Of a stretch of DNA of 64,000 bases, positions 19,469-37,794 are shown in pieces (positions within the stretch are counted from its first letter, which is position 1; each line of letters starts with the position of its first letter). The DNA is from a virus: positions 62,001-126,000 of the IMG/VR virus record IMGVR_UViG_3300025132_000021, one strand, 5' to 3'. The position numbers were made by a program, and so were the translations under genes. Under the pieces are notes generated by a model. It was not told the DNA's origin, did not search any database, and saw nothing but the letters and a program-made list of their open reading frames with translations.

Positions 19469-20161
19469 ATGAGTATGAGAAGCCAAGTATATGAATGGTC
19501 AAACCTCGCACCATCTGGACAAGAGTTCACTCTACGAAGAACAACTGCTGACTTGCCAAAGGCATTGACAGCAAATCGTGAGTATGACTTGTTTATTGGA
19601 GGCGTTGGATTGAACATTACCAAGCCAGCAGAAACGACCGCAACACAGTTTATTGTGATTGAAGATATTGCGTGCAGCCCAACCCTAAACGGTGCTGTCC
19701 AAATCCGAATCAACACAACTGACTACTTCCAGAACCCTGATGTTACCGATATGGTCGGTATCCCGGGACTGGCAAGCCCTTACCCTCGTGGCGCACCAGC
19801 AACAGTCAATTTGGCTGCTGCAACTGTCGGCGCAGGAATCGTAGATTCAGACAACATCCTAAAGTCTTTTGACCTTTACCCAGATGTTTATGTCCTACCG
19901 GGTCAGACTTTCCAGATTCTTTACACACCTCTTGAATCCAGTCTTGTTGGTGGCGCAGGTTCAACTGCGGTAGTCTCTGCATTCATCAAATACACACTAT
20001 ATGATGGACCAGACGCTCTTATTGCTAACAAACTTTTGGAACTTGGTGTCACCATCAACCCAAACAATGTTGATTGGTATAAGCGAAGTCTAATTGAACA
20101 ACAACAACGCTCTGCTGCTGCTTCTGCGGCTGCTATGGCTGCAACCAACGGAGGTGTCTGA
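19469..20161 (+). CDS. Capsid-like protein 1 (probable single jelly-roll major capsid protein)
   Basis: 230 residues from the ATG at 19469 (GGAG 10 bases upstream; N-terminus MSMRSQVYEW identical in pattern to the next gene). Four paralogues in this window share QVYEW, FIGG-G-NI, FVVIED, R-I-TT-YF-NPD, PGLASPYPRG, DVYVLPGQ and the C-terminal YTLYDGPDALIANKLLE plus NPxNVDWYKRSL. The all-beta central part, size, tandem pairing and presence of an A32-like ATPase fit single jelly-roll capsid proteins of internal-membrane archaeal viruses, such as the VP4/VP7 pair of sphaerolipoviruses. That assignment is inference. A long leader and strong signals suggest high expression. Confidence 0.75.
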   Translation: MSMRSQVYEWSNLAPSGQEFTLRRTTADLPKALTANREYDLFIGGVGLNITKPAETTATQFIVIEDIACSPTLNGAVQIRINTTDYFQNPDVTDMVGIPGLASPYPRGAPATVNLAAATVGAGIVDSDNILKSFDLYPDVYVLPGQTFQILYTPLESSLVGGAGSTAVVSAFIKYTLYDGPDALIANKLLELGVTINPNNVDWYKRSLIEQQQRSAAASAAAMAATNGGV

Positions 20162-20162
20162 A

Positions 20163-20849
20163 ATGAGTATGCGAAGTCAAGTATATGAATGGGACGCTGG
20201 CCGTGGAACTAACCAAGTTCAAGCAGCCGAAGCAGGACAAAGAATCAGTATTTTTATCGGCGGATTCGGTAACAACATTACCAAGCCTGCTGAAACCACT
20301 GCAACCGAGTTCGTTGTTATTGAAGATATTGCTGTAACCCCTACACTATCTATTGGTGTAGATGCAACAGCAGGTGCGGCTGTCACAGGTCTTGCTGATG
20401 GTTCAGTTCGTGGTCTACTTTACAACAGCGTTCAGGGTGTCGCAGGTCCTCGTGCCTACACTCAAGTTCGTATCAACACCACTGATTACTTCTTGAACCC
20501 TGACAATGTGCCAAACGACGGTATTCCGGGAACTGCTTCCCCATACCCACGAAGTATCAACTTCCAGCCTTCGTTCAACCTATACCCTGATGTATATGTT
20601 CTACCGGGTCAAGTTTGGGATGTTATCGTAACCTTCTACAACGCACTTGGTCTTGGAGATGCTGCTACTGGCGCACCTCTGGCTGGCACAACCAATGTTG
20701 TCGCTACTAACCAATTGCAGTGTTTCGTGAAATACACTCTGTATGACGGACCTGATGCACTCATCGCTAACAAGTTGTTGGAGATGGGTATTTCCATCAA
20801 CCCCGGAAATGTAGACTGGTATAAGCGAAGCCTTCTTGCTTCACAGTAA
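20163..20849 (+). CDS. Capsid-like protein 2 (paralogue of the preceding gene)
   Basis: 228 residues from the ATG at 20163, one base after the previous TGA, with GGAGGT 8 bases upstream; the frame extends upstream but the shared MSMRSQVYEW N-terminus fixes the start. Shares the YEW, FIGGFGNNITKPAE, FVVIEDI, RINTTDYF, DVYVLPGQ and YTLYDGPDAL motifs with protein 1 but has a different central insertion (about residues 65-90). Adjacent diverged copies suggest a heteromeric capsid lattice or hexon/penton split. Confidence 0.75.
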   Translation: MSMRSQVYEWDAGRGTNQVQAAEAGQRISIFIGGFGNNITKPAETTATEFVVIEDIAVTPTLSIGVDATAGAAVTGLADGSVRGLLYNSVQGVAGPRAYTQVRINTTDYFLNPDNVPNDGIPGTASPYPRSINFQPSFNLYPDVYVLPGQVWDVIVTFYNALGLGDAATGAPLAGTTNVVATNQLQCFVKYTLYDGPDALIANKLLEMGISINPGNVDWYKRSLLASQ

Positions 20850-20878
20850 GTGTAGGACGCTGAAACCAACGAGCCGTT

Positions 20879-20928
20879 AGGCTTGTGGCCGAGGTATTGC
20901 CGAAAGGCTACCAATGAAGCCACAGCCT
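20879..20928 (+). ncRNA. Structured RNA element downstream of the capsid-like genes
   Basis: Nested stems: AGGC (20879-20882) with GCCT (20925-20928), TGTGGC (20884-20889) with GCCACA (20919-20924), GGTA (20893-20896) with TACC (20909-20912), and GCC (20899-20901) with GGC (20906-20908) closing a GAAA tetraloop. It lies in the 106-base gap after the second capsid-like gene. Possibly a 3' stability, processing or termination element, or a cis regulator of the following operon. Confidence 0.6.
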
Positions 20929-20955
20929 GATGTGCGCTCTAAGGGAGTAGATGTC

Positions 20956-21174
20956 ATGCGTAGGCTGTTAAAGGATGTTATCGTTGTCGGCACAGCACTT
21001 TTTGTGTTAGGCACATGGATGACTTCGCACCACAGTCATAAGGTAATAACACAGGAACACCCTGAACATAAAGTTCGGGACTTCTTGATTTACACTTGTG
21101 TCGGTATTGCGTTAATCACCGTGGGCAGCAACATGATGACTGATGGGTTCGTTAGCAGACTCCGAGGAGATTAG
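20956..21174 (+). CDS. Two-helix membrane protein A (tandem paralogue pair)
   Basis: 72 residues from the ATG at 20956, with GGGAG upstream; the earlier in-frame ATG at 20914 lies inside the structured element and is rejected. Two helices (about 8-22 and 44-62) with a His-rich loop (SHHSHK) between them and the pattern VG..L...GSN...G..S.L at the end, which is repeated in the next gene. Confidence 0.7.
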   Translation: MRRLLKDVIVVGTALFVLGTWMTSHHSHKVITQEHPEHKVRDFLIYTCVGIALITVGSNMMTDGFVSRLRGD

Positions 21175-21175
21175 T

Positions 21176-21376
21176 ATGACCGTCAAGAATAGTTCACTAT
21201 TGATTGGCGGTGTTATGTTTCTCACAGGGTTTGTTTTAACAACTTATCATGTGTCGTATCTGATGGACCCTCAACGAAGTGCGCTAAAACACCTCGTCTG
21301 GGCGATAGTAGGCGTAGGTTTGTTCCAAATTGGTTCAAACTTAACTGCCAGTGGAATCCATGATAAGTTGTCTTAG
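21176..21376 (+). CDS. Two-helix membrane protein B (tandem paralogue pair)
   Basis: 66 residues, ATG at 21176 directly after the previous TAG and preceded by GAGGAG. It aligns with the preceding protein over its full length: first helix with G...FL.G...T..H, a 13-15 residue loop, then HL...VGVGL...GSN...G...KL. A recent tandem duplication that has diverged. Confidence 0.72.
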   Translation: MTVKNSSLLIGGVMFLTGFVLTTYHVSYLMDPQRSALKHLVWAIVGVGLFQIGSNLTASGIHDKLS

Positions 21377-21387
21377 GTGTTGTTCAC

Positions 21388-21843
21388 ATGAGCATCTTTG
21401 ATGTAGATAAGTATTTTATTGTCAAAGATTGGGGCATTAACCCTTACGACCCAGATTCAACATGGGACGGATTGAAAAGCCTTCAGTTAAAAGAATTGAT
21501 GCGACTTGCTAAATCATTAACTGATGTTGATGGAGGCATGAAAAGCAACTACGAATCTTACAAAGAAAAGGATTCCTATGCGAAGCGAGACACACTCGTA
21601 GGTTGGATTATGGGTTTAATTTACTTTAATGATGTAAATTATTTCCACGACAAATTGAGTTCTCCGAAAGGATTTCTTGCACCCAGCCATCCTTTTGTAA
21701 TGTCTTTTGTTGAGTATTTTGTGCTGAACTATCAACGACCCACCCAGATTCTTAACTGTTCTGATGCCTTTTTAGTAAGTATGATGCGTCGTTATGGTGG
21801 AGGCAAATGGATTATTGCTCACAAGAAATATGGTGATGCTTAA
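21388..21843 (+). CDS. Hypothetical soluble protein
   Basis: 151 residues, aromatic and Lys/Asp-rich, mostly helical by appearance, no membrane segment and no recognised motif. Its TAA shares one base with the next ATG (TAATG), so it is translationally coupled to the following unknown. Confidence 0.72.
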   Translation: MSIFDVDKYFIVKDWGINPYDPDSTWDGLKSLQLKELMRLAKSLTDVDGGMKSNYESYKEKDSYAKRDTLVGWIMGLIYFNDVNYFHDKLSSPKGFLAPSHPFVMSFVEYFVLNYQRPTQILNCSDAFLVSMMRRYGGGKWIIAHKKYGDA

Positions 21844-22463
21844 TGAATCCAGAGATATTTCAATCGCTACGACAGGCTCGTATTCTTAATTGGACTTATT
21901 TTGCTCACATAGAACAATTTATCCGTGCCAATCTTGAAGATTTTAAGAATCTTTACACTGATAGATACTGGCGTGCCAAAATGACAGACGAAGACCGCAA
22001 AATGGCGAGCCATCCAAATCGTGGATACAGATGGATACCTAATTATTTAGAGAAACAGCGTTCAGAATTACAAGAAAAACTTTTAGATTATGTAGTTGGA
22101 CCTGATAATTATGAAAGCGGTTTGTGGAGTAGTTCTAAGTTTTGTTATAGTTGTGGAGTTACACAAGAAGACCGCAACGATTTCTTAAGAGATATGAACG
22201 AATGCTTAAAAAGCAAATCTACGAAAACCCCTCCCGACGCATTTCTCACAGGCTTAGGTGTTTTAGAATATAAAAGGATAAGAAGTGCGTGTTTCCAAGA
22301 AACTTCTACTAAATATGACCCTAAAGTTTCTCTTAGTATGAGCGAAGAAAGGTGGGAAATGGGTTCAATTCCATTTGCGGCTACTATGAATTATGGTTTT
22401 TGTAGTGGTTGTTGGGACGATATTAAAAAACAGAGTCAAGAACTAATCCGAAGGTTTAAGTAG
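21843..22463 (+). CDS. Hypothetical protein with paired cysteines
   Basis: 206 residues, basic, with CYSC (near 101-104) and CSGC (near 187-190) pairs that could form one zinc site, and a long helical N-terminal part. It ends RRFK-stop inside the promoter of the glycosyltransferase gene. Not recognised. Confidence 0.72.
   Translation: MNPEIFQSLRQARILNWTYFAHIEQFIRANLEDFKNLYTDRYWRAKMTDEDRKMASHPNRGYRWIPNYLEKQRSELQEKLLDYVVGPDNYESGLWSSSKFCYSCGVTQEDRNDFLRDMNECLKSKSTKTPPDAFLTGLGVLEYKRIRSACFQETSTKYDPKVSLSMSEERWEMGSIPFAATMNYGFCSGCWDDIKKQSQELIRRFK
22454..22463 (+). promoter_or_regulatory. TATA-type promoter overlapping upstream stop codon
   Basis: GGTTTAAGTAGG, first T 31 nt before the ATG at 22486. 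Confidence 0.75.
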
Positions 22464-22485
22464 GTATCAACGCATAGTTAGCATA

Positions 22486-23373
22486 ATGTTTGATGTTATC
22501 GTCCCTACTTACAAAGTTTCTACCGAGTTCCTGAAACCTTGTTTAGACTCTATCTTGAATCAAAACTTTACAGATTGGCACTGTTGGATTGCAGATGGCA
22601 CACCCGAAGACGATGCTACTTACCAGCCCATGATGGACTTAATAGCAAACTATCCTGCGGATAGATTTACTTATCTGCGCCAATCGGGTCGTGGAGTTTC
22701 TCAAGCCCGAAACGAGGCTATTGCTCAAGGCACACAGCCCTTTATTGCTACTTTAGATGGTGATGATTTGTGGTATCCAGAACACTTAACTTGGATGGTA
22801 GAAGCGATTGAATCTACTACGGACGACCATGTTTTGTGGTGGGCAGGTGCAGATGCTCTCATAGAAATGATTTCAATGAAAACAGGAAACCATTATCAGA
22901 ACCGAGGCATTATTGGCTGGTTTGAAGATTACTCAAAGGTTCGTCCTGAAGATTTACATTTCTTTTTACGAGGCAACCCAGTTATTCCTTCCAACACAGT
23001 TTGTCGTCGTAATCGTTTTGAAACCGTTGGAGGCTACGATGAAGTCTTACAAATTGGAGAAGATACTGATTTATACACTCGTATGATTGCATGGGGTGAA
23101 CCCTACCGAGGCCATCAAATTGATGCTGTTTCAGGTTATCATGGTTGTGGACCACATCAAACTACTCAATTTGGTTCACAAAGTTCTGCGGCTCATGGTC
23201 GTAATGAAGACGAGTTAAAATCCGAGTTTATTAAACAGAAACTATACTGGTATGGCAAAAATAATGAAATGCCTGAATGTCCCGAAGGCGTAGACCCTGA
23301 TTATTGGTTCTGGTTAATAGATTCTGTGAACAACCGATTTAAGGATAACCTAATGTTTGAGATTCAGGGATAA
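22486..23373 (+). CDS. Family 2 glycosyltransferase
   Basis: 295 residues. GT-A fold signatures: N-terminal VIVPTYKVS (4-12), LDSILNQ (20-26), SQARNEAI (72-79) and the DxD-type metal-binding motif DGDD (91-94). Length is normal for a cytosolic GT2 enzyme transferring a nucleotide-activated sugar. With the pyruvyltransferase-like gene at 18502 it flanks the capsid-like genes, so a role in glycosylating virion or host surface structures is inferred. No membrane segment. Confidence 0.85.
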   Translation: MFDVIVPTYKVSTEFLKPCLDSILNQNFTDWHCWIADGTPEDDATYQPMMDLIANYPADRFTYLRQSGRGVSQARNEAIAQGTQPFIATLDGDDLWYPEHLTWMVEAIESTTDDHVLWWAGADALIEMISMKTGNHYQNRGIIGWFEDYSKVRPEDLHFFLRGNPVIPSNTVCRRNRFETVGGYDEVLQIGEDTDLYTRMIAWGEPYRGHQIDAVSGYHGCGPHQTTQFGSQSSAAHGRNEDELKSEFIKQKLYWYGKNNEMPECPEGVDPDYWFWLIDSVNNRFKDNLMFEIQG

Positions 23374-23377
23374 TGAA

Positions 23378-23387
23378 CCTTAAGTAA
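23378..23387 (+). promoter_or_regulatory. TATA-type promoter
   Basis: ACCTTAAGTAAGTCCT, TATA-equivalent base 31 nt before the ATG at 23410. The same AAGTAAGTCCTACA variant precedes the gene at 43848. Confidence 0.7.
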
Positions 23388-23409
23388 GTCCTACAATCTA
23401 TGCTATGCT

Positions 23410-24771
23410 ATGAGCCGAATTGAAATAGAAACTCCTATCGGGCCAATTAGTGCCGATTTAGACAACCTAAGCGAAGATTTATCCTACCTACTAAGTAAGG
23501 TCAAGAAAACAGACAAAATTGATGAATCAACTTTGGCTTTCTTAGGTATTGCTCGTGATGATGATAGCGTGGCCGTAGAGTCTAAGAGAACCTACTATCA
23601 CGATAGGTCTTATGTGTTTTGGATGGATGCTATGCTCACAGTTTTAGAAAAAGATTACCGAATTGTTAAAACTGAAAATTACAATTACGGCAACAACAAA
23701 ACCGCACCTATTTGGTTTGATGAAAAAGTAGGAGATAAAACTATTAAAGTTCCACACAAATTAGTGATGTTTGTAGAGTCTAAAACCAATGATGAAAGAT
23801 TTGTTATTACTTTCTCACCATTTGACGAGTTTGAAATTGATATGTGTTTTCAATTCCGTAGTGATAATGATTTTAATTACACAACTTTCTGGGAATCAGT
23901 AGAAAGTTATTTCTATACAGAAGGCTTGCTCAAGAATGCTCACTTTTCAGCCGATTTCAAATTATTAGATACTGAAACTTTTACATGGAATCACATGGTT
24001 ATCAAAGATACTCACCGCCGTAGTCTGGAAAGAAACTTAGTAAGGTTTATTGATTCCGTAGAACTTTTCCAAAGCAAAGGACTTCGTGGTAGTCGTGGAG
24101 TTTTGCTTGCTGGACCACCCGGAACTGGTAAAACTTTGACTTGTAAGGTTTTAATGAGCGAAATTGATGCCACAGTGCTATATGTGGCTCGTGATGCTAT
24201 CCAAAATGTAGGACAAATCACAGAACTTTACAAAATGGCACGCCGTTTTGCACCTGCAATCGTTATCTTAGAAGATATTGACACGCTTGGAGGATTGGGT
24301 CGTGATGAAGGCGACCACCCGCTACTTGGAGAGTTCCTTAACTGTTTAGCAGGAGTAGAAGAAAACAATGGAGTAGTTACTTTGGCAACTACTAATCATC
24401 CTGAAAAACTTGATTGGGCATTGACAGACCGACCCGGTAGATTTGATGTTAGAATTACTTTTGATTATCCAGATTCAGACCATCGGTTAGCGATTCTGGA
24501 GAAGTATCTTGAACCATTTAACACCAAAAAACTCAACCTCAAGAAGATTATTAAGCGAACCGAAAAGTTTTCAGGTGCTTATCTACAAGAGTTGGTTCAA
24601 TCTGCCTTTATGTTAGCCCATGAAGAATGTGGTTATTGTTCTGAACCTCAAATTACTTTAACTCATTTGGAACAAGCCATGGAACTTTTAGAATCCCAAC
24701 GACGAAAAGTTAGCCGTGAAAAGAACCTAAGTTATGGTGATGAAGTTACTATTGAAGAACTGTATAACTAA
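23410..24771 (+). CDS. AAA+ ATPase
   Basis: 453 residues. The C-terminal half is a classical AAA module: Walker A GPPGTGKT (235-242), Walker B VILEDID (285-291), sensor region ATTNHPE and the PGRFD second-region arginine segment. The N-terminal 200 residues form an unrecognised substrate or adaptor domain. The AAA part resembles the Cdc48/FtsH/BCS1 group rather than MCM or RFC. Likely an unfoldase or remodeller; it could act with the VWA protein, though that is speculative because they are not adjacent. Confidence 0.87.
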   Translation: MSRIEIETPIGPISADLDNLSEDLSYLLSKVKKTDKIDESTLAFLGIARDDDSVAVESKRTYYHDRSYVFWMDAMLTVLEKDYRIVKTENYNYGNNKTAPIWFDEKVGDKTIKVPHKLVMFVESKTNDERFVITFSPFDEFEIDMCFQFRSDNDFNYTTFWESVESYFYTEGLLKNAHFSADFKLLDTETFTWNHMVIKDTHRRSLERNLVRFIDSVELFQSKGLRGSRGVLLAGPPGTGKTLTCKVLMSEIDATVLYVARDAIQNVGQITELYKMARRFAPAIVILEDIDTLGGLGRDEGDHPLLGEFLNCLAGVEENNGVVTLATTNHPEKLDWALTDRPGRFDVRITFDYPDSDHRLAILEKYLEPFNTKKLNLKKIIKRTEKFSGAYLQELVQSAFMLAHEECGYCSEPQITLTHLEQAMELLESQRRKVSREKNLSYGDEVTIEELYN

Positions 24772-24778
24772 GAGTAAT

Positions 24779-24788
24779 CTTTAAGTAT
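24779..24788 (+). promoter_or_regulatory. TATA-type promoter
   Basis: AATCTTTAAGTATCAGG, first T 30 nt before the ATG at 24810, which therefore outranks the in-frame GTG at 24792. Confidence 0.82.
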
Positions 24789-24809
24789 CAGGTGCGCCAA
24801 CCTTTTAGC

Positions 24810-26690
24810 ATGAGTGATTTCAATTATTACTATACATTTTATGACAAGTCCAGAGGCGACGAAGTTTTAACGGCCTTGCGTCAAAGTGGGGCAGAGACTA
24901 AATCTGAAGCCATTGATTTTTTGATAGACGGTGGTTATTTACATTCTGACGAAGTTTATGATTCTGCTGTTGCTAATGCTATGGGCGACTTTTTAGGCAT
25001 TTCCTCGTATAATCCTGATGAAGATGAAGAGTTTGAAGCCCCAGTTGGCACTAAGCATTCCGCACTTGATGAAGTCCACCAAAGACTTCGTGAATCAGGT
25101 AAGAAAAGACGACAGCAAGAGATTGCTAAGGCTCGCCGTATGAAACAAAGAAAGTTTGATGCAGAAGGCACTGTCCGAATGAAAATTGAATACGAGTGGT
25201 GGTGCGACTTTTATGATGATGAAGAGGGGAGACTATACAAAGATTACAAAGGTTATTCACAAGACGATAGAATGAAAATTGAAGACTTAGTTAAGAGAGA
25301 AATTGAGTTCCATCTTGCATCTGGTGATTCCTCTGGGTATTACCCTTATGGAATGGCTGAACTTGGCTGGTCAGATGATGAAGGTTCTTATGATATTGGA
25401 TACGAGTTTTATGTCATGGCTGACGCAGACGATGGAGTAGTTTTTGATGCTGACATGGAAATGACTCCAGATATTATGGATTATCCCGGTTTGCCAGTAG
25501 TTCCTGATTCTTACGGCACTAATTCTGCTTTAGATTCTGGTAATGGTGTTCCAGTTTGGTATGGTTCGGCTGAATCAAACAGAGCGCATGGGCAATTACG
25601 CTACGACGCACGCTTTGACAGAGACCAAACAGGAGAACAAGAATTATTGCAGAATTACTATGTAAAATATAGGGTTTATGATATTGAGAACGATAAAACC
25701 TATAATGACTTGCACCCAGCATTCAGATATGAGTTTAACAAAATGATTAAAGCAGACATTGAAAGTAATTTTGATACTTTATGGATGAACGATGAAGAAG
25801 ATTTGCGGAACTTCTATGGAGAGATTGAGTATGAGGGTCCAGAAGGAGAAAAAGTAGTAATTGACTACGAGGCAACTTTGAGTCCACCTCAAATCCTATC
25901 GGAAAAATTATATTCAGATAGGAGTAATTCATATTATGAGTTTGGTGTGAACTTCAAGGGTGAAACTTTTGAAGCCCCATTCGCTGGCGCAGGTTCATTG
26001 TTTAAGTTTGGAGGAAACGATTCAGCCCTTGGCGGTTTTACCGCCAAAGAATTGACCGAATCTTCGTCCATTCACGGCGATTTTGACCACGCTTCTTTGA
26101 ATTATTCTGGTAAGCAAAACATTGAAGCCCGTGCTGAAAGTGCTAATCCAACAGGCGGTGCTACTGGCGACCAAATTATCGCATGGGAACATAATGGACT
26201 TTCTTCTCCATCTGGACCTCCTTCTGATATTTTCTGGTCTGAAGGTTCATCTGATGGTATCCATATTGTAATTCCATCATCACAAGTAAAGGAATTAACT
26301 AATCACTTTGGTATTTCCAAAGAACAATTAGAAAAAATTATGAAACACGCCATTAAGGAAGAGTTAGAAACAACTCAACAAGGAAGTTATGCCAGTTTCC
26401 CGTATGGATACAATGATGATTTATCTAACATACAACTTGATGCTGAAGGCTATGGAGATGTTCAAAAGTATGTTTCTATTGATTTTAATTGGGATTATTC
26501 TGGAGAGCATGAAGATGCTGTTTCTGATGGTGATTACTACATCACCGACCAAATTAAAGATTTGGTAGAATCGGAGGTAGAAAGCGGTGAATACAGTGGT
26601 AGTGGTTGGTATTCTTACACAGTTGAAATTGAAGATGATAAAGGCGAAATTACCGAAGAAGATGTAGATATTGATTATTCATGGGGATGA
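24810..26690 (+). CDS. Large acidic repeat protein with GVPVWYGSAE module
   Basis: 626 residues. Three diverged copies of an approximately 80-residue acidic aromatic domain (about 118-205, 275-360 and 545-626), each with an (I/K)(E/D).W.Y-type strand and a later helix rich in Lys/Glu. Between copies 1 and 2 lies PDSYGTNSALDSGNGVPVWY followed by GSAE (227-254), a module nearly identical to two copies in the gene at 28734. FDAEG, FDADM, LDAEG and FEAPF match the recurring tetrad. No membrane helix. Confidence 0.78.
   Translation: MSDFNYYYTFYDKSRGDEVLTALRQSGAETKSEAIDFLIDGGYLHSDEVYDSAVANAMGDFLGISSYNPDEDEEFEAPVGTKHSALDEVHQRLRESGKKRRQQEIAKARRMKQRKFDAEGTVRMKIEYEWWCDFYDDEEGRLYKDYKGYSQDDRMKIEDLVKREIEFHLASGDSSGYYPYGMAELGWSDDEGSYDIGYEFYVMADADDGVVFDADMEMTPDIMDYPGLPVVPDSYGTNSALDSGNGVPVWYGSAESNRAHGQLRYDARFDRDQTGEQELLQNYYVKYRVYDIENDKTYNDLHPAFRYEFNKMIKADIESNFDTLWMNDEEDLRNFYGEIEYEGPEGEKVVIDYEATLSPPQILSEKLYSDRSNSYYEFGVNFKGETFEAPFAGAGSLFKFGGNDSALGGFTAKELTESSSIHGDFDHASLNYSGKQNIEARAESANPTGGATGDQIIAWEHNGLSSPSGPPSDIFWSEGSSDGIHIVIPSSQVKELTNHFGISKEQLEKIMKHAIKEELETTQQGSYASFPYGYNDDLSNIQLDAEGYGDVQKYVSIDFNWDYSGEHEDAVSDGDYYITDQIKDLVESEVESGEYSGSGWYSYTVEIEDDKGEITEEDVDIDYSWG
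25491..25574 (+). repeat. GVPVWYGSAE module, copy shared between genes
   Basis: Encodes a 28-residue segment (LPVVPDSYGTN ... GVPVWYGSAE) that recurs, with one to three substitutions, at 29115-29201 and 29799-29885 in a different gene. Confidence 0.8.
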
Positions 26691-28733: not shown

Positions 28734-30245
28734 ATGACTGACTTTGAGGCCATGTCCGTTTATGATGCGGGCGAAGACGACATTCTGAACACATTGAGTA
28801 AGTTCAGTAGAGATTATCCTTCCATGAATTACTCAAAAGGTAGTATGGAATACTTGACTTACACCAGTGGTGCATCCAACAAGTTCCACAATTTCTTCCT
28901 TGCTCAAGACGGTTCAGGAAACTATTTCGCTTTCAATGGCTATGCTCGTATTGGGTATGGTCCAACTATCCATCGTATTGCAGGACCTACTTCTGAAGAA
29001 ATGGCTCGTGGTGCTATGCGTAAAAAGATGCGTCAAAAGGAACGCAAGGGCTATGTGAACCGCACTCGTGATTTCAAAAGTTCTATGCGTGCTGAATATG
29101 TAGTCACTGAATCTGGACTTCCAGTTATTCCTGATTCCTATGGCACAAACTCCGCTTTGGACTCTGGACAAGGAGTTCCAGTTTGGTATGGCTCTGCTGA
29201 AGGTGATGACAAGGCTAATTCCGCCCGTAAGTTAGTTGAAATGCTCGGTAATGGAAAGATTGAAGTTAATTCAATTGATAATTTCGTCCAAAACTTTACT
29301 CGTGATACTGATTTCCATGAACTTAGTGAAGATGAATTAGATATTATTTTCCGTGATGGTTCAATGGCAACTATGATTGCTGATAAAACAGCAGATGGTT
29401 ATGAAATCAGCACAGTAGTTGTGGCTTATGACTCCGAACACCACAAGGGACAAGGATACAACGATGAGATGGACGAATCTCTCGGTATGAGACACCGAGG
29501 CTCACACAGCCAAAGTTTCAAAGACCGCCGAGATGAAGCCTCGGCTATGGATAAGCGACACTCCAAAATGGGTCGTAAATATGATGATGTGATGGCTATG
29601 GACAGTGAACACCACAAAGGACAAGGATATAATGATGAAATGGATGAATCTCTCGGAATGCGCCATCGTGGTTCGCACTCCCAAAGTTTCAAAGACCGAA
29701 GAGATGAAGCATCTGCTATGGATAAGAAATATGGCATGATGCGTAAGTATGACGATGTAGCCGCTATGGATGCTGAAGACTATGTAGTTCTTGAATCTGG
29801 ATTACCAGTTATTCCTGATTCTTACGGAACAAACTCTGCTCTTGACTCTGGACAAGGTGTGCCAGTTTGGTATGGTTCTGCTGAAGGAGATTATGATTAC
29901 CAAAGCACTATGGGCGACATTGACTCTGCACCATTTACAGAAGGCACAGTCAATCCAATTACTTTTACTCGTTTGGGTGCTTATGATGTCCCAGTGATTG
30001 ACAATTCTGAAGGCCAAGATTCCGCTATTGGAGGTCGTGGTGTCCCAGAATGGTATGGAAGTGCAGAAGGAGATTACGAAACTTTTATGGACGACTTTGA
30101 CCGCACTGAATACGAATACAAAGATGTTGAACTTGTTAAGCCTTTCAAGACTGGATTTATGGGTGCATTAGGAGTTATCATGGCTCCAGTAGCCGTAACT
30201 TTTGGTGCAGCACTTTTGGGAATGTTTTTGAACCGTGGTGAATAA
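28734..30245 (+). CDS. Repeat-rich tail-anchored protein
   Basis: 503 residues. Two 33-residue repeats (ESGLPVIPDSYGTN ... GVPVWYGSAEGD) near 126-158 and 354-386, a third diverged GRGVPEWYGSAEGD near 431-444, and two 42-residue copies of a His/Arg/Asp-rich block starting DSEHHKGQGY (about 233-274 and 290-331). A C-terminal helix (about 477-496) anchors it. MDAEDY and MRAEYV tetrads precede the repeats. Likely a virion membrane protein with a modular ectodomain. Confidence 0.78.
   Translation: MTDFEAMSVYDAGEDDILNTLSKFSRDYPSMNYSKGSMEYLTYTSGASNKFHNFFLAQDGSGNYFAFNGYARIGYGPTIHRIAGPTSEEMARGAMRKKMRQKERKGYVNRTRDFKSSMRAEYVVTESGLPVIPDSYGTNSALDSGQGVPVWYGSAEGDDKANSARKLVEMLGNGKIEVNSIDNFVQNFTRDTDFHELSEDELDIIFRDGSMATMIADKTADGYEISTVVVAYDSEHHKGQGYNDEMDESLGMRHRGSHSQSFKDRRDEASAMDKRHSKMGRKYDDVMAMDSEHHKGQGYNDEMDESLGMRHRGSHSQSFKDRRDEASAMDKKYGMMRKYDDVAAMDAEDYVVLESGLPVIPDSYGTNSALDSGQGVPVWYGSAEGDYDYQSTMGDIDSAPFTEGTVNPITFTRLGAYDVPVIDNSEGQDSAIGGRGVPEWYGSAEGDYETFMDDFDRTEYEYKDVELVKPFKTGFMGALGVIMAPVAVTFGAALLGMFLNRGE
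29109..29207 (+). repeat. 99-bp coding repeat A, copy 1
   Basis: Encodes ESGLPVIPDSYGTN through GSAEGD; copy 2 at 29793-29891 is identical in protein over 33 residues with synonymous differences. Confidence 0.85.
29430..29555 (+). repeat. 126-bp coding repeat B, copy 1
   Basis: Encodes DSEHHKGQGYNDEMDESLG and on to SAMDK (42 residues); copy 2 at 29601-29726 encodes the same 42 residues with synonymous changes. Confidence 0.88.
29601..29726 (+). repeat. 126-bp coding repeat B, copy 2
   Basis: Second copy of the His/Arg/Asp-rich block; separated from copy 1 by 45 bases. Confidence 0.88.
29793..29891 (+). repeat. 99-bp coding repeat A, copy 2
   Basis: See 29109-29207; same 33 residues. Confidence 0.85.
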
Positions 30246-30601: not shown

Positions 30602-30602
30602 T

Positions 30603-31178: not shown

Positions 31179-31179
31179 G

Positions 31180-31189
31180 TATTAAGTAG
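31180..31189 (+). promoter_or_regulatory. TATA-type promoter
   Basis: TATTAAGTAGTCGT, TATA-equivalent base 30 nt before the ATG at 31211. Confidence 0.8.
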
Positions 31190-31210
31190 TCGTAAGTAAT
31201 AGGTGATAAT

Positions 31211-32011: not shown

Positions 32012-32012
32012 T

Positions 32013-32022
32013 CTTTAAGTAT
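32013..32022 (+). promoter_or_regulatory. TATA-type promoter
   Basis: AATCTTTAAGTATCAAG, first T 30 nt before the ATG at 32044. Confidence 0.82.
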
Positions 32023-32043
32023 CAAGATGACTAAATCTTAGTC

Positions 32044-32613
32044 ATGGCAGGATACAATATCTCGTGCGACCCCGGTGATTTATACTCTCGTAAGTGTTAT
32101 GTCGTTACCTCATCAGGTGATAGACAAGAAATTATTGGCTATGACCAGCAAGGCAACCCTATTTCTAAAGCACCTACAACTGCGGCAGGAACAGCGTGGC
32201 AACCCAGCATCACAGTTTTAGATGATTCTGGAAATGCTTATCAACCTTATGGCAGCGCAGGACTACCATTTACTATGAGTGGAATCTCTGGTGTCGGAGG
32301 CATTATGCCCTCATCTGGTGCAGACCCACAAGATTGGAAGTATATTACTGAATCCGCACCCGGTTCACAAGCCCGAAAGATGTATCAAGAGCGCACCTGC
32401 AATCCGCTTTGGCCTACCTTTGGATGTAAAACTTCTAAGAATATCAATCCCACAGGCGTTACCACAGCCCCAACTGATGGCAACCCTCCTGCTGCTTCTG
32501 AAGCATGGTATAACAAGTATTTTGGTTGGTTTAATGCAGAAGAAGATAACTATGCAGACAAAACCACAGATTCTAAGATTTTGACATGGTGTAAAAGTTT
32601 ATTCGGTCAGTGA
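32044..32613 (+). CDS. Hypothetical Cys-containing protein
   Basis: 189 residues, Ser/Thr/Gly/Pro-rich, with spread cysteines (CDPGDLYSRKC early, CNPLWPTFGCK later) that might form disulphides in an exposed domain. FNAEED near residue 160 is another tetrad. No membrane helix. Not recognised. Confidence 0.72.
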   Translation: MAGYNISCDPGDLYSRKCYVVTSSGDRQEIIGYDQQGNPISKAPTTAAGTAWQPSITVLDDSGNAYQPYGSAGLPFTMSGISGVGGIMPSSGADPQDWKYITESAPGSQARKMYQERTCNPLWPTFGCKTSKNINPTGVTTAPTDGNPPAASEAWYNKYFGWFNAEEDNYADKTTDSKILTWCKSLFGQ

Positions 32614-32617
32614 TATT

Positions 32618-32923
32618 ATGACAGACCACGAAAAGAGTCGTATTGAAGAAGAGTTTGCTTCTAAGCAAAAGGCTCAAGAAATTGCGGCTCGTCAAGCATG
32701 GCGAGGACTTTTAGTTCCTGCTGTCGGTTCAGCAGCGTTTTTTGCGTCAGCCGTTGTTGGTTTTATTCGCACCTATCGTAAATATGGATTTCCACACGAT
32801 GCTTTCAAACCATTTGATTATGCTCTAATGGGTATTCCGTTTGTGATTATCGGCATGGCATTCTTCTATCAGTCTGAAGAAGCCGAGTTGGAAAGCAACG
32901 GAGGCAGTTCAAGTGCCGTTTAA
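32618..32923 (+). CDS. Two-helix membrane protein
   Basis: 101 residues: charged amphipathic N-terminal helix, two hydrophobic segments (about 29-47 and 66-84), acidic Ser-rich C-terminus. It starts 4 bases after the previous stop and overlaps the next gene by 11 bases. Confidence 0.72.
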   Translation: MTDHEKSRIEEEFASKQKAQEIAARQAWRGLLVPAVGSAAFFASAVVGFIRTYRKYGFPHDAFKPFDYALMGIPFVIIGMAFFYQSEEAELESNGGSSSAV

Positions 32924-34364
32924 GTCCCGAAAACAGCAAGACTTCTTGCGAATCAATGAACCTGAAATCTATGATAGATGGATGCGTCTTTATGGACCTT
33001 ATGAAGCCGACTCTGAATCTTGGCAAGGCATTTCTTTAGCAGGTAAAGTAGATGAAATCTCTGAAATGTTAGGAACTCGTAAGAAAAAAGCCGAAGGTGA
33101 CCCAAGTTGGATGAAAAATCCTGAAGAGAAAAGAAAAGTTTTCTTAAAACTTCAGAAACAAGATGGAGTCCCTCGTATTTGTGAAGTCTGCGAAGATGCC
33201 TACACAGGTTTGTATTACTACACAGAAGATAACGAAACTTTTGTAGTTTGTCGCCCGTGTGTTCAACAAGGAGAACAAGATTGGTCAGAACTATTTGGTG
33301 TTAAACCAGATTGGACAGGTGAACGAGGAGGTCGCACTCGTAATTTAGTAATGCGTAGTGATTATGATTATGTGCCTAAAGCAGATTGTTCTAATTGTGG
33401 AAAACCTGCTGACTTTGCAGTTTATTCTTTGCCCGTTGGTAGCCGATATTTCTGTCAAGAACGCTGTTATTCTGATTATGTAGGATTGCCACCAGAGCCA
33501 GAAGGTTATTATGGCTACACAGCCGAAGATGAACCCGAATGGGTAGTATCTTCTGAAGATATTCAAATCGGAGATAAAGTTAGAAGTTATGATTTTTGTT
33601 TTGGAGGTAAAACTTTACAACTTGATTCTTATGTAGAAGGATATGTTTTACAAATTGCCCCTGTTGAATGGTGTTCACCAACTTGTAATCATTATCATAT
33701 TCGCACCACTGCTCGCCTAATGGGTGGAAAAGTGCAAGAAGATTACGAAGATTATTACTTTCCAGTAGCCGATGCGAACCAAACCGTAGTTAGGCGTTTG
33801 CGAAGTATGAATGCTGAAGATACTCCAAAGCGTATATTTAGCCTAAGTAATCTATGTTGCTCTCGCTGTGGTAGGTATAGTTTTTGTAAAGAAACTTTCA
33901 AATGCTTGCGAGAAGATTGTGACTATGAAGAAGAACCAAGAGAAAGAGTAAGTAATGTGATTACTCTCAAAGGTAAAGTAGTAGATAAAGGACATGGAAC
34001 TATCACAGGATTTGAAGAAAATGATTTATGGGATGTCCATGATTCTGAAAATTGGGGTGGAGACCCAGAAGGACAATTAGCGAAAGCATTGGCTAAGGCT
34101 CGTGAAGATTCTAAAAAGCCTCGTCGTCCATTAAAAATAACTAAACTTCCGCACCGAGACCAAAAAACTTTGAAAGATTTTGAAGCCGAGACTGAAAAAG
34201 AAGTGGCTTTTGAAATGACTCGTAAAGATATTGCTTTAGTAAGTTTTGGTGCTATTCTGGGTGTGATTTCAGGAGTTGTTGGAGAAGTTTTAGCAGAGTT
34301 TTGGTTAGACCGCTACCGCAGAGACCCAGAATTAGTAGTTAGTGAAGAAAAACAGAACGCTTAA
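32913..34364 (+). CDS. Zinc-rich tail-anchored protein with phage-type N-terminal motif
   Basis: 483 residues, GTG start. Residues 1-27 (PFKSRKQQDFLRINEPEIYD) match a short N-terminal module common in phage and archaeal virus proteins (PFRS..QRRYL..N.PEIA..W). Three cysteine clusters follow: CEVC/CRPC, CSNCGK/CQERC, and CCSRCG/CLREDC. YEADS, YTAED, MNAED and FEAET tetrads punctuate the chain. A C-terminal helix (about 438-462) anchors it. Probably a modular virion protein. Confidence 0.76.
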   Translation: MPFKSRKQQDFLRINEPEIYDRWMRLYGPYEADSESWQGISLAGKVDEISEMLGTRKKKAEGDPSWMKNPEEKRKVFLKLQKQDGVPRICEVCEDAYTGLYYYTEDNETFVVCRPCVQQGEQDWSELFGVKPDWTGERGGRTRNLVMRSDYDYVPKADCSNCGKPADFAVYSLPVGSRYFCQERCYSDYVGLPPEPEGYYGYTAEDEPEWVVSSEDIQIGDKVRSYDFCFGGKTLQLDSYVEGYVLQIAPVEWCSPTCNHYHIRTTARLMGGKVQEDYEDYYFPVADANQTVVRRLRSMNAEDTPKRIFSLSNLCCSRCGRYSFCKETFKCLREDCDYEEEPRERVSNVITLKGKVVDKGHGTITGFEENDLWDVHDSENWGGDPEGQLAKALAKAREDSKKPRRPLKITKLPHRDQKTLKDFEAETEKEVAFEMTRKDIALVSFGAILGVISGVVGEVLAEFWLDRYRRDPELVVSEEKQNA

Positions 34365-34368
34365 GTAG
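34359..34368 (+). promoter_or_regulatory. TATA-type promoter overlapping upstream stop codon
   Basis: GCTTAAGTAGG; TATA-equivalent base 30 nt before the ATG at 34390, which is therefore preferred over the in-frame GTG at 34369. Confidence 0.75.
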
Positions 34369-34389
34369 GTGCGTGCTTTTATTCTGCTT

Positions 34390-34860
34390 ATGGATGCCGA
34401 TAGTTTCTGGAAGGGTTATTTGATGGCTCGTCGGGAAAGATTTGCACAAGAAAAGCGTGCTTTAATTGGTGGCGAATACAATTCTAATACCAAGTATTGG
34501 GATGGCATGATTGAACAAGAATGGCTTATTTTCAAAGATAGATTGTCTACGGGGTTTGATGTTTCCAAAGATGTTAAAGCCCAATTAGGATTAGATTTTT
34601 TCACTCTTGATGAAATCCACTCACCTGTCTCTGGAACTTACACTTTAGAATCAGGTGAAACTTTGCCGTTTTATGCTTATGAAGATTATGTGATGTTAAG
34701 TAATCAAGGTATTTTCCGAGAAGAAGATTTTATTTTAGACCGTGAACGCCGTTGGCAACCCAAAGTTGAAAAACTTTTAGCCAAGTCAGGTTATCAACGA
34801 GTAGATGTTATTTGGGACGGAGGTGTGTCGTATCTTAGATTCTGCAAAAGAACAGACTAA
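34390..34860 (+). CDS. Hypothetical soluble protein
   Basis: 156 residues from the promoter-supported ATG. Aromatic and Arg/Glu-rich, no membrane helix and no recognised motif. It overlaps the start of the next gene by 56 bases in another frame. Confidence 0.7.
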   Translation: MDADSFWKGYLMARRERFAQEKRALIGGEYNSNTKYWDGMIEQEWLIFKDRLSTGFDVSKDVKAQLGLDFFTLDEIHSPVSGTYTLESGETLPFYAYEDYVMLSNQGIFREEDFILDRERRWQPKVEKLLAKSGYQRVDVIWDGGVSYLRFCKRTD

Positions 34861-35359
34861 ATGGGAAAAAGTTTCTGAACAAGAGTTCATCACTGTTCGG
34901 ATTATGATTAAGATTATTGTTTCTTTATCATTAGTGATTCAGATTCCATTTATTGCTATGGCCGAAATGTGGAATGTAGCACCCTTTAGTTTTGAATGGT
35001 GGATGATGCAATTTTTCGGATTTGTTATGGCAACCAACTTGGGTGCTGTGATTTTGGCTATGATTGCTCAAGATTCTGCTACTAAAATTGGGGCGATACA
35101 ATCTACTGCATTTACGGCTGAGTTTATGGAAGGTGTAGAAACTTTAACTAAAATAATGACTGTTTTTAATGAAACTGCGTCCGAAGAAAATGAATCTTTA
35201 GATGCTCAAATTGAAGAGTTTGCACCCGCATTCTACCGATTGGGACTACAATACTTGCGAACTCATGCCCTTCCTTCGGAAGAACCACCCACTCTTGATG
35301 AGTTGGGTATCGCCGCCGCCGATTTCCAGTGTGAAGATGAAGAACTCTTTGAAGCATAA
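34805..35359 (+). CDS. Two-helix membrane protein with acidic tail
   Basis: 184 residues if begun at the ATG at 34805, but a GTG at 34823 or the ATG at 34904 is possible. Two hydrophobic helices (about 36-52 and 66-87), then FTAEFM and an acidic helical C-terminus. The 56-base overlap with the upstream gene favours a later start. Confidence 0.68.
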   Translation: MLFGTEVCRILDSAKEQTKWEKVSEQEFITVRIMIKIIVSLSLVIQIPFIAMAEMWNVAPFSFEWWMMQFFGFVMATNLGAVILAMIAQDSATKIGAIQSTAFTAEFMEGVETLTKIMTVFNETASEENESLDAQIEEFAPAFYRLGLQYLRTHALPSEEPPTLDELGIAAADFQCEDEELFEA

Positions 35360-35368
35360 TGCCATAAC

Positions 35369-35378
35369 ACTTAAATAG
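35369..35378 (+). promoter_or_regulatory. TATA-type promoter
   Basis: ACTTAAATAG 33 nt before the ATG at 35403, with an AAAAGGAG site in the short leader. Confidence 0.6.
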
Positions 35379-35402
35379 TAAAAACCCACAAAAAGGAGTA
35401 AT

Positions 35403-35771
35403 ATGAACCGTCTTGTTAATTGGTATTTTTACATAGTCATCTTGTTATTATCTTCATGTGTCTATTACACTTATTTGGTAATGCAAGTAGGTTCTATGAA
35501 TCCCCAAGTAATACGAGCCGAAATACTTAAAGATAGCACTTCATTAGGCGCATGGGCATTTTTGTTAGATATTATCTTTTTGTTTTTGATTGGAGTATTC
35601 ATTAAAAAACGCATGGTAAAAAGAAAAGAAACTAAATGGATGTCGGCGTTTGACGGACAATCTCAACTTATTATGGACTTAGAACCACTTCCAGTCCCGC
35701 ATTTACCTCCACCACCTCCCACACCAGAACAAATGGAATTGTTAGGCATACTTAAAGATGAGAACCTTTAA
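35403..35771 (+). CDS. Two-helix membrane protein with Pro-rich tail
   Basis: 122 residues: helices at about 8-27 and 48-66, then KKRMVKRKE and a polyproline C-terminus (PHLPPPPPTP). Positive-inside logic places both termini on the same side. The stop is embedded in the following promoter. Confidence 0.74.
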   Translation: MNRLVNWYFYIVILLLSSCVYYTYLVMQVGSMNPQVIRAEILKDSTSLGAWAFLLDIIFLFLIGVFIKKRMVKRKETKWMSAFDGQSQLIMDLEPLPVPHLPPPPPTPEQMELLGILKDENL

Positions 35772-35775
35772 GTAT
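35766..35775 (+). promoter_or_regulatory. TATA-type promoter overlapping upstream stop codon
   Basis: ACCTTTAAGTATCAG, first T 30 nt before the ATG at 35797. Confidence 0.83.
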
Positions 35776-35796
35776 CAGAACCAACCTATCTGAAGT

Positions 35797-36276
35797 ATGG
35801 CAAATCAAGACCCTCAACCAGAAGTCTACACAACCAGTCACCAATTCGCTGGTGCTGCTCTATCTGGAACTTCAAATGTAATCTCAATTTTTACCAACCA
35901 AGCAAACAACGAAGAAGTCCGTTTGTATGCTATTGGAATTGAAATGTTGGATGCTACCACTGGTTCGCCTTTAGCGGCAGACCTTGATTATTCCGTATCT
36001 ATTCAAGTAGGTCCAAACAATGTTCCTTCTAACGCTTTCAGCGCAGGATTTATCAACAGCAAGAACGACCGCACTTTGGCTTTTAGTAGCCCAATTCTTT
36101 GTTTGTTCCAGCAACCACTTCAAGTAACCGTTACTACCAACCAAGCCGTTGCAGCCAACGGAAGCATTATCAAAGTAACACTCATTGGAGAACTTGCTAT
36201 CCAAAAGATTGCAGTTCACGCTGGCAACTGGGAACATCAGATGAACTCTATGGGACCACAATCTCGCCAACGCTAA
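35797..36276 (+). CDS. All-beta protein, possible minor capsid or penton-type protein
   Basis: 159 residues, almost entirely beta-strand-prone (VISIF, VRLYAIGIEML, YSVSIQVG, LQVTVTT, IIKVTLIGELAI), consistent with a single jelly roll. It opens the exterior-module gene run that continues with the second capsid-like pair, Pro-rich spike candidate and fibre, so a vertex or minor capsid protein is plausible. No sequence motif shared with the four YEW proteins was seen. Confidence 0.65.
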   Translation: MANQDPQPEVYTTSHQFAGAALSGTSNVISIFTNQANNEEVRLYAIGIEMLDATTGSPLAADLDYSVSIQVGPNNVPSNAFSAGFINSKNDRTLAFSSPILCLFQQPLQVTVTTNQAVAANGSIIKVTLIGELAIQKIAVHAGNWEHQMNSMGPQSRQR

Positions 36277-36288
36277 GTAGATGGAATG

Positions 36289-36298
36289 CTTTAAGTAG
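36289..36298 (+). promoter_or_regulatory. TATA-type promoter for the second capsid-like pair
   Basis: GCTTTAAGTAGCAG, first T 30 nt before the ATG at 36320. Confidence 0.83.
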
Positions 36299-36319
36299 CA
36301 GACCCGTCATATTACGACT

Positions 36320-37027
36320 ATGAGCATTCGTCGTCAAGCCTATGAGTGGCGAAACATTGTTCAGGGTTCTACTGCTATTGTCAGTAATTCTGGACATCCT
36401 ATTTTGAATTACGCTGGTGATACCTCCGTAATAGGCAGAGCAATTGAGATTCCGCCATTCGTTCCTTATGATATTATGGTCGGAGGCATCGGAAACAACT
36501 TAGAAGAACCAGCCATGCTTAGAGCGCATCAATTGATTGTAATAGACCACATGGGTAGTTATCCTGCTTCAGCAGGTCTAAACATTCGTATTGGCACAAC
36601 TCGTTATTTTCAAAATCCAGACGGTATTCCTGATATTGGAATGCCCTCATCGGCTATGCCTTTTCAACCAATTACTATTTCGGTTGGTGAATCCAAGTTA
36701 GGATTTTTTGAAGAAATCACTCCTCCTGTCTATGTCTTACCCGGTCAAACATGGGGTATTGAGTTCACTTCTTTTGAAACTTTGAACTCTGGAAGTCCAG
36801 TTCCTACATCAGACACCCAAATTGCCAGAGCCTATGTGCGTTATTTACTGATTGATGGTCCTGACCAACTAATTGCTATGAAACTTTTACAACAAAACAT
36901 TCCTATCAGTCCAGAAAACATTCAGTGGTATAAGCAAAACTTAATTCGCAACCGACTTCGTGCTGATTTGGGAATGGAAGAAATGCTGGAAGAACGCCTC
37001 CGTGATAAAGAAAGGAGGTTGATTTGA
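36320..37027 (+). CDS. Capsid-like protein 3
   Basis: 235 residues, N-terminus MSIRRQAYEW. Shares with proteins 1 and 2 the MVGGIGNN, LIVIDH, RIGTTRYFQNPDG, PPVYVLPGQTWGI strand and the C-terminal LIDGPDQLIAMKLLQ and IQWYKQNL motifs; the C-terminus is more basic. It is leaderless rather than having a long leader, suggesting lower expression than the 19469 pair. Possibly a minor capsomer or vertex component. Confidence 0.72.
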   Translation: MSIRRQAYEWRNIVQGSTAIVSNSGHPILNYAGDTSVIGRAIEIPPFVPYDIMVGGIGNNLEEPAMLRAHQLIVIDHMGSYPASAGLNIRIGTTRYFQNPDGIPDIGMPSSAMPFQPITISVGESKLGFFEEITPPVYVLPGQTWGIEFTSFETLNSGSPVPTSDTQIARAYVRYLLIDGPDQLIAMKLLQQNIPISPENIQWYKQNLIRNRLRADLGMEEMLEERLRDKERRLI

Positions 37028-37794
37028 TGGCAATTACTTATCAAAACTATGAATGGACACTGGCAGGCCAAAGTTCTACGGGAGCAGCCAGACCCTCGGA
37101 TTTTCCACCTGCTGGTGTAGAAACTTCTATCTTTGTAGGTGGTTTTGGAAATAACATTGAGATTCCACCATTTGTCAATGAAGACCAATTTGTAGTAATT
37201 GAAAAGTTTGGTAGCACAGGAGGTGTATTAGCAAATATCCGAGTAACAGGAGATGGAACACATAGATTAACAAACTTTGTTCCCAATGGTTTCATTCAAA
37301 TTGTTATCAATTCAACTGGATATTATCAAGACCCACAAAACACATGGCAACATGGAATTAGTGGTGATGCAGCCCCTTATCCATTCGGAACTACTGATAT
37401 TCCACCCAGTTATGTGTTAGACCCTCCTGTTTATGTGCTTCCAGAGCAAACATGGGATATTCGCTACACCATGATGAATAATCTACCAGAGTTTATTCAA
37501 GCATACAATGTAACTAACACGCCAAATACTCTTAAGATTCCTCCAACCACTCAAATTGCCAAATGTCATGTGCAATATCATTTATTTGATGGACCAGATG
37601 CTTTAATTTGTCATCAACTTTTAGAATTGGGTATTCCTATCAATGTCGCTACGGTAGAGTGGTATCGTAGAATCTTGCTTAAAAGTCGTGGTTTGGACAC
37701 ATCTACATGGGAACATTACTTGGAAGTTTCTCAAGCCTTCCGAGACAAAGAAAAAAAGTATGAAGAACTCTATGGTCGCCAAAGAAAGGCATAA
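37027..37794 (+). CDS. Capsid-like protein 4
   Basis: 255 residues from the ATG at 37027 (shares a base with the preceding TGA; GGAGG 8 bases upstream). N-terminus MAITYQNYEW; FVGGFGNNIEIPP, FVVIEKF, VINSTGYYQDP, DPPVYVLPEQTWDI, HLFDGPDALI and VEWYRRIL align it with the other three. It is longer in the loop around residues 60-85. The pairing 3+4 mirrors 1+2, so the whole two-gene cassette may have been duplicated. Confidence 0.72.
   Translation: MAITYQNYEWTLAGQSSTGAARPSDFPPAGVETSIFVGGFGNNIEIPPFVNEDQFVVIEKFGSTGGVLANIRVTGDGTHRLTNFVPNGFIQIVINSTGYYQDPQNTWQHGISGDAAPYPFGTTDIPPSYVLDPPVYVLPEQTWDIRYTMMNNLPEFIQAYNVTNTPNTLKIPPTTQIAKCHVQYHLFDGPDALICHQLLELGIPINVATVEWYRRILLKSRGLDTSTWEHYLEVSQAFRDKEKKYEELYGRQRKA

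Follow-up and report, generated by a model that had tools for sequence, protein, structure and literature searches.

Viruses with vertical single jelly rolls form the realm Singelaviria (PMC12714852), and the accessible parts of two accounts give their genome sizes as 16-30 kb (PMC12643093, PMC12642351). In the sphaerolipoviruses, a short VP7 and a tall VP4, both jelly-roll major capsid proteins (MCPs), occur as heterodimers, together with a separate penton protein VP9 and an internal membrane; in HCIV-1 the VP7/VP4 heterodimer is the building block (PMC6414509). Sphaerolipoviridae have linear genomes with inverted terminal repeats (PMC12643093). The archaeal virus SPV1 is icosahedral, with an internal lipid layer, VP4 hexamers, VP10 pentamers and T=43 (PMC8459092). 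Duplication is thought to have given rise to the state with two MCPs, and SPV1 is placed close to the base (PMC8812541). Five consecutive jelly-roll proteins have also been described in Borgs, large linear archaeal elements (PMC12660748), and an extensive replisome in marine archaeal viruses, the Aoguangviridae or magroviruses (PMC10768690). Here we analysed a stretch of 64,000 nucleotides (the window), positions 62001-126000 of the 160,342-bp IMG/VR virus record IMGVR_UViG_3300025132_000021 (G000). It has four paralogous genes in two coupled pairs, and a fifth copy, split over two genes, lies upstream. It is likely that the four genes and the split copy encode capsomer proteins of a large, marine, tailless virus of archaea with linear double-stranded DNA. 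The shell would be made from an exceptionally large set of related single-barrel proteins.

To within a few bases, the four genes lie where a reading of the sequence alone (the sequence-only reading) had placed four genes with shared motifs:

19469-20161, plus strand: A1, first gene of pair 1, 230 amino acids, lean; probable major capsid protein (from paralogy, structure prediction, VIA-align match and identity to the sister genome)
20163-20849, plus strand: B1, second gene of pair 1, 228 amino acids, paralogue with an extended DE loop
36320-37027, plus strand: A2, first gene of pair 2, 235 amino acids, lean paralogue
37027-37794, plus strand: B2, second gene of pair 2, 255 amino acids, with an extended DE loop and a long C-terminal helix

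All-against-all BLASTP was highly significant both within the pairs (A1/B1, E = 4.9e-64; A2/B2, 8.5e-33) and between them (A1/A2, 7e-40; B1/B2, 4e-43; A1/B2, 6.7e-33; B1/A2, 1.5e-31). Therefore, the four are true paralogues and do not merely share a chance motif. Their identity was 31-46% over all six pairwise comparisons, and the four-way alignment had 42 invariant columns; the conserved columns include the YEW, VYVLP, DGPD and WYK/WYR segments. The coupled translation proposed for both pairs was borne out by their junctions. In pair 1, the TGA stop of A1 is followed by one base and then by the ATG of B1, with GGAGGT ahead of B1; in pair 2, the TGA of A2 overlaps the ATG of B2 (TGATG), with AAGGAGGT ahead of B2. 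Where the first gene of each pair stops, there is thus a strong ribosome-binding site for the second. The long leader that had been ascribed to pair 1 was not evident, as only 76 nt separate A1 from the preceding open reading frame (ORF), which ends at 19392. Shortly before pair 1 there is a gene for tRNA-Ala(TGC) (18312-18385, plus strand).

Structures were predicted for A1 and B2, one member of each pair. The AlphaFold2 model of A1 (15-sequence alignment) had a predicted local distance difference test score (pLDDT) of 72 and a predicted template modelling score (pTM) of 0.64; that of B2 (31-sequence alignment) had a pLDDT of 86.3 and a pTM of 0.73. Both were single jelly rolls with C-terminal helices, as had been proposed, and the long DE loop of B2 was modelled as a beta hairpin. 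With VIA-align, the best solved match of both models was SPV1 VP4 (A1, Z 8.6 over 127 residues; B2, Z 8.0 over 133 residues). Further matches, at Z 5.2-6.5, were to HHIV-2, the STIV turret, P23-77 VP17, SH1 and HCIV-1. The suggestion of homologues among sphaerolipovirus-type proteins therefore received weak support from structure, as the Z scores to helvetiaviral MCPs (5.2-6.5) were level with those of unrelated jelly rolls, and none from sequence: the PDB chains of helvetiaviral MCPs gave no sequence-profile match to the family at E<=10. A profile search of PDB with the family returned chance-level matches only. In BFVD, three matches fell under 1e-3, all to viral proteins that are either uncharacterised or unnamed; the match to SPV1 VP4 stood at 3.9e-3. 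Because the margin in Z over unrelated jelly rolls is small, we claim the fold class and not the lineage; on these models, a single jelly roll is better supported than descent from any named lineage.

The same proteins, or parts of them, were found in seven related records, comprising four further IMG/VR contigs and three GTDB contigs. The records are G001 (166 kb), G002 (150 kb), G003 (123 kb), G004 (136 kb), G005 (61 kb), G006 (fragments) and G007 (84 kb). G007 is close to G002 in the capsid region, and the split-copy proteins of these two look the same. The GTDB contigs with these viral genes (PALK01000017.1, PBOB01000001.1 and NZVE01000013.1) are filed in bacterial metagenome-assembled genomes, in bins of Rickettsiales, Acidiferrobacteraceae and Rhodobacteraceae, and are most likely mis-binned contigs of archaeal viruses. 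Pair 1 was present in each of the seven viruses with a contig that reaches across the region. Identity between the sister genomes G000 and G001 was 81% for pair 1 and 61% for pair 2. The ratio of nonsynonymous to synonymous differences per site (pN/pS) was 0.23-0.25 for pair 1 and 0.40-0.42 for pair 2, values that serve as ranks and not as rates, as synonymous sites are near saturation. Being universal and slow-evolving, as is expected of major capsid proteins, pair 1 probably encodes the MCPs, the role that the sequence-only reading had given it.

Loop lengths split the family (32 sequences) cleanly into two types. The A-type proteins (A1, A2 and X, an extra A-type copy near pair 1 in G003 and G005) have a DE loop of 10-15 residues (one of 21) and an FG loop of 14-30. 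The B-type proteins (B1, B2 and the split copy) have a DE loop of 20-48 residues and an FG loop of 10-12 (27 in the G003 split copy). The A gene precedes the B gene in every pair. In G004, the DE loop of B2 holds one insert of roughly 265 residues, which is different from the inserts of the split copy.

The two loop-length characters favour the duplication of an ancestral A-B cassette, as had been inferred from the pairs, but the sequence tree lent no support to it. The maximum likelihood (ML) tree supported A2, B2 and a split-copy clade (without the G003 copy), joined A1 with B1 (89/91) and placed B2 outside A2 plus pair 1 (97/93). Approximately unbiased (AU) tests gave p = 0.355 for the partition of A from B, 0.066 for B1 and B2 alone and 0.205 for A1 with B1. 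The tree neither favours nor rejects the A-B partition and is neutral to mildly opposed to it. Tandem duplications that occurred separately, first of B2, next of A2 and then of A1/B1, would produce this topology without any cassette duplication, and we regard them as a credible minority possibility. However, the A-B partition survived the AU test, both loop characters and the constant gene order part A from B across the two pairs, and gene conversion or slow evolution can also bring A1 and B1 close together.

A profile search of the whole G000 record found only one more family member. It is divided over two adjacent genes (record 42582-45945), 20 kb upstream of the window:

Record 42582-43079: first gene of the split copy, 166 amino acids, family profile positions 2-148
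Record 43093-45945: second gene of the split copy, 951 amino acids, profile positions 158-206 near the C-terminus

Between them, the halves cover all of the family profile (positions 1-149 and about 157-206), and their in silico fusion aligned over the whole family. We found the arrangement in seven records (G000, G001, G002, G003, G004, G006 and G007), which represent six distinct viruses. The break is constantly between the penultimate and the last strand, in the HI loop. The open frame of the second gene ranges from 433 (G003) to 1,574 (G004) residues, with an insert of about 340 to 1,400 residues ahead of the end of the jelly roll. The first gene ends in TGA in every case, and a start of the second gene is possible 2-17 nt downstream. 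We rejected a conserved programmed frameshift that would join the halves: three viruses have a frame offset of +1 and the rest one of +2, and in G003 stops in frame 2 make any fusion impossible. For the same reasons, two separate polypeptides are the best reading of these sequences. The G003 split copy grouped with B1 on the ML tree, apart from the other split copies, so an independent second split may have occurred at the same loop; this is tentative because the branch is long.

The inserts of the family enter at the DE loop (G004 B2) and the HI loop (split copy). In a standard jelly roll, these two loops are at the same end of the barrel, and the inserts would thus suit an outward-facing domain. 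Between G000 and G001, the N-half was 65% identical, the C-terminal jelly-roll end of the second gene 67% and the whole second gene 38%. The corresponding pN/pS values were 0.42, 0.32 and 0.62, with pS saturated. A conserved barrel with a fast insert fits a spike-bearing capsomer. The first gene would supply strands B-H, and the second a very large, fast-evolving domain followed by strand I and the C-terminal helices, so that two polypeptides would have to complete one barrel. A literature search found no precedent for two gene products that together form one capsid jelly roll, and a half barrel may not fold alone. The first gene might then be a remnant, and the second a free spike with a kept jelly-roll tail, not part of a complemented capsomer. 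We consider this unlikely, given that both halves are conserved and constrained in the six distinct viruses, stay adjacent and jointly cover the profile, and that the position of the G003 copy on the tree hints that this loop was split independently there. An ArsA/Get3-type ATPase (record 46473-47618; Pfam E 3.5e-61) is encoded two genes on from the split copy and is also present in G001. Since several window proteins have a C-terminal transmembrane-like (TM-like) segment (those starting at 2730, 4822, 28734, 32913 and 61193), a role of this ATPase in tail-anchor targeting is conceivable.

Both pairs stand in gene blocks that recur among the relatives. The first block runs through the genes at 14524, 15494, 16323 and 17638 to A1, B1, a glycosyltransferase and an AAA gene. 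The second comprises the genes at 34369 and 34805, W0, A2, B2 and W5, followed by a fibre-like gene wherever the retrieved sequence extends that far. The neighbouring features in the window are as follows:

14524-18177, plus strand: four genes (14524, 15494, 16323 and 17638) upstream of pair 1, the last two TM-like; from synteny, candidate sub-capsid or membrane proteins
22486-24771, plus strand: glycosyltransferase-like ORF and AAA+ ATPase, which follow pair 1 in relatives
34369-34860 and 34805-35359, plus strand: two small genes, the second TM-like, whose place upstream of W0 is kept in relatives
35797-36276, plus strand: W0, 159 amino acids, conserved, upstream of A2; candidate vertex or capsid accessory protein
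37827-38786, plus strand: W5, 319 amino acids, conserved, flanked by B2 and the fibre gene; candidate for a penton protein or a fibre anchor
38822-42949, plus strand: repetitive fibre-like protein, 1375 amino acids, with a weak PHROG tail-fibre match (E 2.7e-4)

W0 and W5 were considered as further members of the A/B family and rejected, as they had no profile similarity to it. Pair 2, with its neighbours W0 and W5, was present in five viruses, and the earlier placement of this pair among fibre genes was borne out by the conserved block. There is one copy of W0 in G000, G001 and G002, and there are two in G004 (beside pair 2) and three in G003. In the second block of G003 (L114:6001-7340), A2 and B2 are absent and the three W0 copies are in tandem, two of them extra in the place of the pair. 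Thus, of the two pairs, only pair 2 is modular. A dispensable, faster-evolving pair beside a fibre-like gene fits a minor or vertex capsomer. As in the analogous VP7/VP4 heterodimers of sphaerolipoviruses, the lean A and the DE-hairpin B jelly rolls of each pair would most simply assemble as A-B capsomers. Those of pair 1 would form the bulk of the lattice, and those of pair 2 a minority tied to the block of W0, W5 and the fibre, probably at or near the vertices; the split copy would provide the spike-bearing capsomer. Packaging would be carried out by a HerA/FtsK-type ATPase, which is listed here with a marker of the host type:

2730-3914, plus strand: HerA/FtsK-type ATPase with a C-terminal TM-like segment, candidate genome-packaging ATPase
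44624-48190, minus strand: DP2, large subunit of the archaeal family-D DNA polymerase (PolD), complete, Pfam E 1e-104; non-structural

The A32-like ATPase of the sequence-only reading is present in the form of this HerA/FtsK-type protein, which matched HerA in PDB (E 6.5e-7) and phrog_2666 (E 5.1e-13) and was conserved in 7/7 records searched. The PHROG label of phrog_2666, terminase large subunit, was rejected, as the protein is HerA-type and phrog_2666 also matches all 14 control genomes. Terminase_6N, the mark of a Caudoviricetes terminase large subunit, was found in 0/5 records. No capsid or portal family (HK97-fold MCP) was among the 25 PHROG matches listed of 30, and no HK97-fold MCP or portal was found in the ten late proteins scanned. 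The many membrane proteins reported earlier were supported by a crude test, in which at least 16 of the 59 window ORFs had a TM-like segment.

DP2 was present in 6/7 records searched. Next to it is a 902-amino-acid protein with DNA polymerase X palm and thumb domains (48234-50939, minus strand). The virus also encodes MCM-like and PolX-like proteins, TBP, TFIIB, PCNA, a class-II ribonucleotide reductase and a ligase. Judged by this gene set together with PolD DP2, it is a virus of archaea. G000 ends in an exact inverted terminal repeat of 99 bp, and G001 in one of 3,462 bp with 99.4% identity (record 1-3462 and 162714-166176). These repeats indicate that the genomes are linear and that at least G000 and G001 are close to complete. 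The G001 repeat contains fragments of about 47 bp from the conserved capsid segment KYTLYDGPDxLI...NKLLELG, in two copies, and a similar fragment is near the start of the G004 contig (C16:507-578). Beside the fragments is a 12-nt motif, TACTGCGAGCCT, with five copies in the G001 repeat, one in G004 and none in the window; the region had no Rfam match.

Two short motifs recur in the late proteins. One, like IPDSYGTNSALDSGQGVPVWYGSAE, is scattered in several otherwise different proteins, with seven matches in the window (sites in 12163-13833, 24792-26690 and 28734-30245); it also occurs upstream of the split copy in G000 and G001 (L040:1271-2203; L045:10717-12165). The other is the tetrapeptide [FYW]xAE, found 29 times in window proteins compared with 10.9 in shuffles (maximum 24), mainly in late proteins and mostly at 5267-34805 on the plus strand. 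It could be a maturation-protease or sorting signal.

Several results weigh against the capsomer reading. The best VIA-align scores (Z 8.0-8.6) are near the background of the tool, whose typical best Z is 7-8 for models without clear relatives. Nucleoplasmin-type jelly rolls reached Z 7.1-7.3 for B2, and PHM scored about Z 5-6 for A1 and B2; thus, the fold alone proves neither a capsid role nor a lineage. Foldseek gave no match in PDB at E 1e-3 for either model, and PHROGs and Pfam searches of the four paralogues gave no match and no capsid family. The term vertex for pair 2 comes only from its neighbours, and pair 2 is not essential to the plan, since the G003 block does without it. With non-capsid jelly rolls scoring almost as well and pair 2 adjoining a fibre-like gene, the paralogues might instead be surface or decoration proteins (fibre heads, receptor- or glycan-binding, or nucleoplasmin-like), the real MCP being another ORF. 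The authors who described the Borg proteins faced this ambiguity as well and drew comparisons with jelly rolls of cells (PMC12660748). However, pair 1 contains the most conserved paralogues, occurs in every record covering the region and stands in a conserved block; the shell protein SPV1 VP4 was the top VIA-align match of both models; and the proteins scanned revealed no further capsid-like family. We therefore judge the decoration role rather improbable. Linear form, inverted repeats and successive jelly-roll proteins are features of Borgs, too (PMC12660748), and the element could in principle be Borg-like and no virus. This is highly unlikely in view of its size (123-166 kb), the HerA/FtsK-type ATPase in every record searched, the use of PolD instead of PolB and the viral classification of the records by IMG/VR. 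A link to Charybdis elements (PMC12324425) was considered and rejected, as by description their proteins and genome size differ.

For the capsomer proteins of an archaeal virus, we infer capsid function, heteromeric capsomers, an internal membrane, vertical packing of the barrels, the lattice, and vertex and spike roles. The best reading is that these archaeal viruses, which are large, tailless and probably contain a membrane, form a lineage that has yet to be described; no description of it was found in the open-licence literature. A search with tblastn of A1, B2 and DP2 against 50,697 phage records gave no relative for these capsid proteins or for DP2, in a lineage that also carries TBP and TFIIB genes, and A1 had no match among plasmids. 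We propose only tentatively, with somewhat less than even confidence, that this is a new high-rank lineage with linear, PolD-encoding, tailless genomes of about 150-166 kb. Its jelly rolls would have been duplicated serially, from a single one to an A/B pair to two pairs, and a two-gene capsomer barrel, split possibly twice, would carry a spike domain that can reach about 1,400 residues. Known archaeal membrane viruses with jelly rolls mainly have genomes of 16-30 kb, and the duplication behind a two-MCP lattice has so far been inferred from structure (PMC8812541); here it is readable in sequence and has gone further. If our interpretation is true, a question of long standing becomes testable, namely how a lattice of single barrels is enlarged to hold 160 kb and how its capsomers diverge into major, minor and spike-bearing kinds. 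The two-polypeptide barrel would be an unusual mount for a large receptor-binding domain.

Compared with the described systems, the locus is different from each in several respects. Aoguangviridae or magroviruses are tailed (HK97, TerL and portal), with genomes of 90-100 kb and PolB, whereas this virus has PolD, jelly-roll proteins and no Terminase_6N match. Borgs, compared here by description, are Methanoperedens elements with PolB and five consecutive genes, in contrast to the lean and extended pairs, the split copy and the PolD of this virus. The candidate Huracanviridae of ANME-1 have MCPs related to those of Helvetiavirae, and the accessible part of their description reports neither PolD nor paralogue expansion. 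SPV1 (Portogloboviridae) shares the single jelly roll, its VP4 being the best solved structural match of A1 and B2, at Z scores near background. However, its genome is a circle of about 20 kb without a packaging ATPase (PMC8812541), whereas G000 is linear, 160 kb long, ends in inverted repeats and encodes a HerA/FtsK-type ATPase; five paralogues of one sequence family also set it apart from SPV1. Several features are shared with Helvetiavirae. A1 and B2 are predicted single jelly rolls, the ATPase is of the FtsK/HerA superfamily with a putative packaging role, and the difference in the DE loop between A and B corresponds to one shorter and one taller MCP gene, but in two pairs. The A/B pairs thus recall the short VP7 and tall VP4, although it is a second barrel that makes VP4 of HCIV-1 taller. 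Sphaerolipoviridae and their relatives (Helvetiavirae, Singelaviria) have genomes of 16-30 kb, whereas here 160 kb carry four to five paralogues, one of them split.

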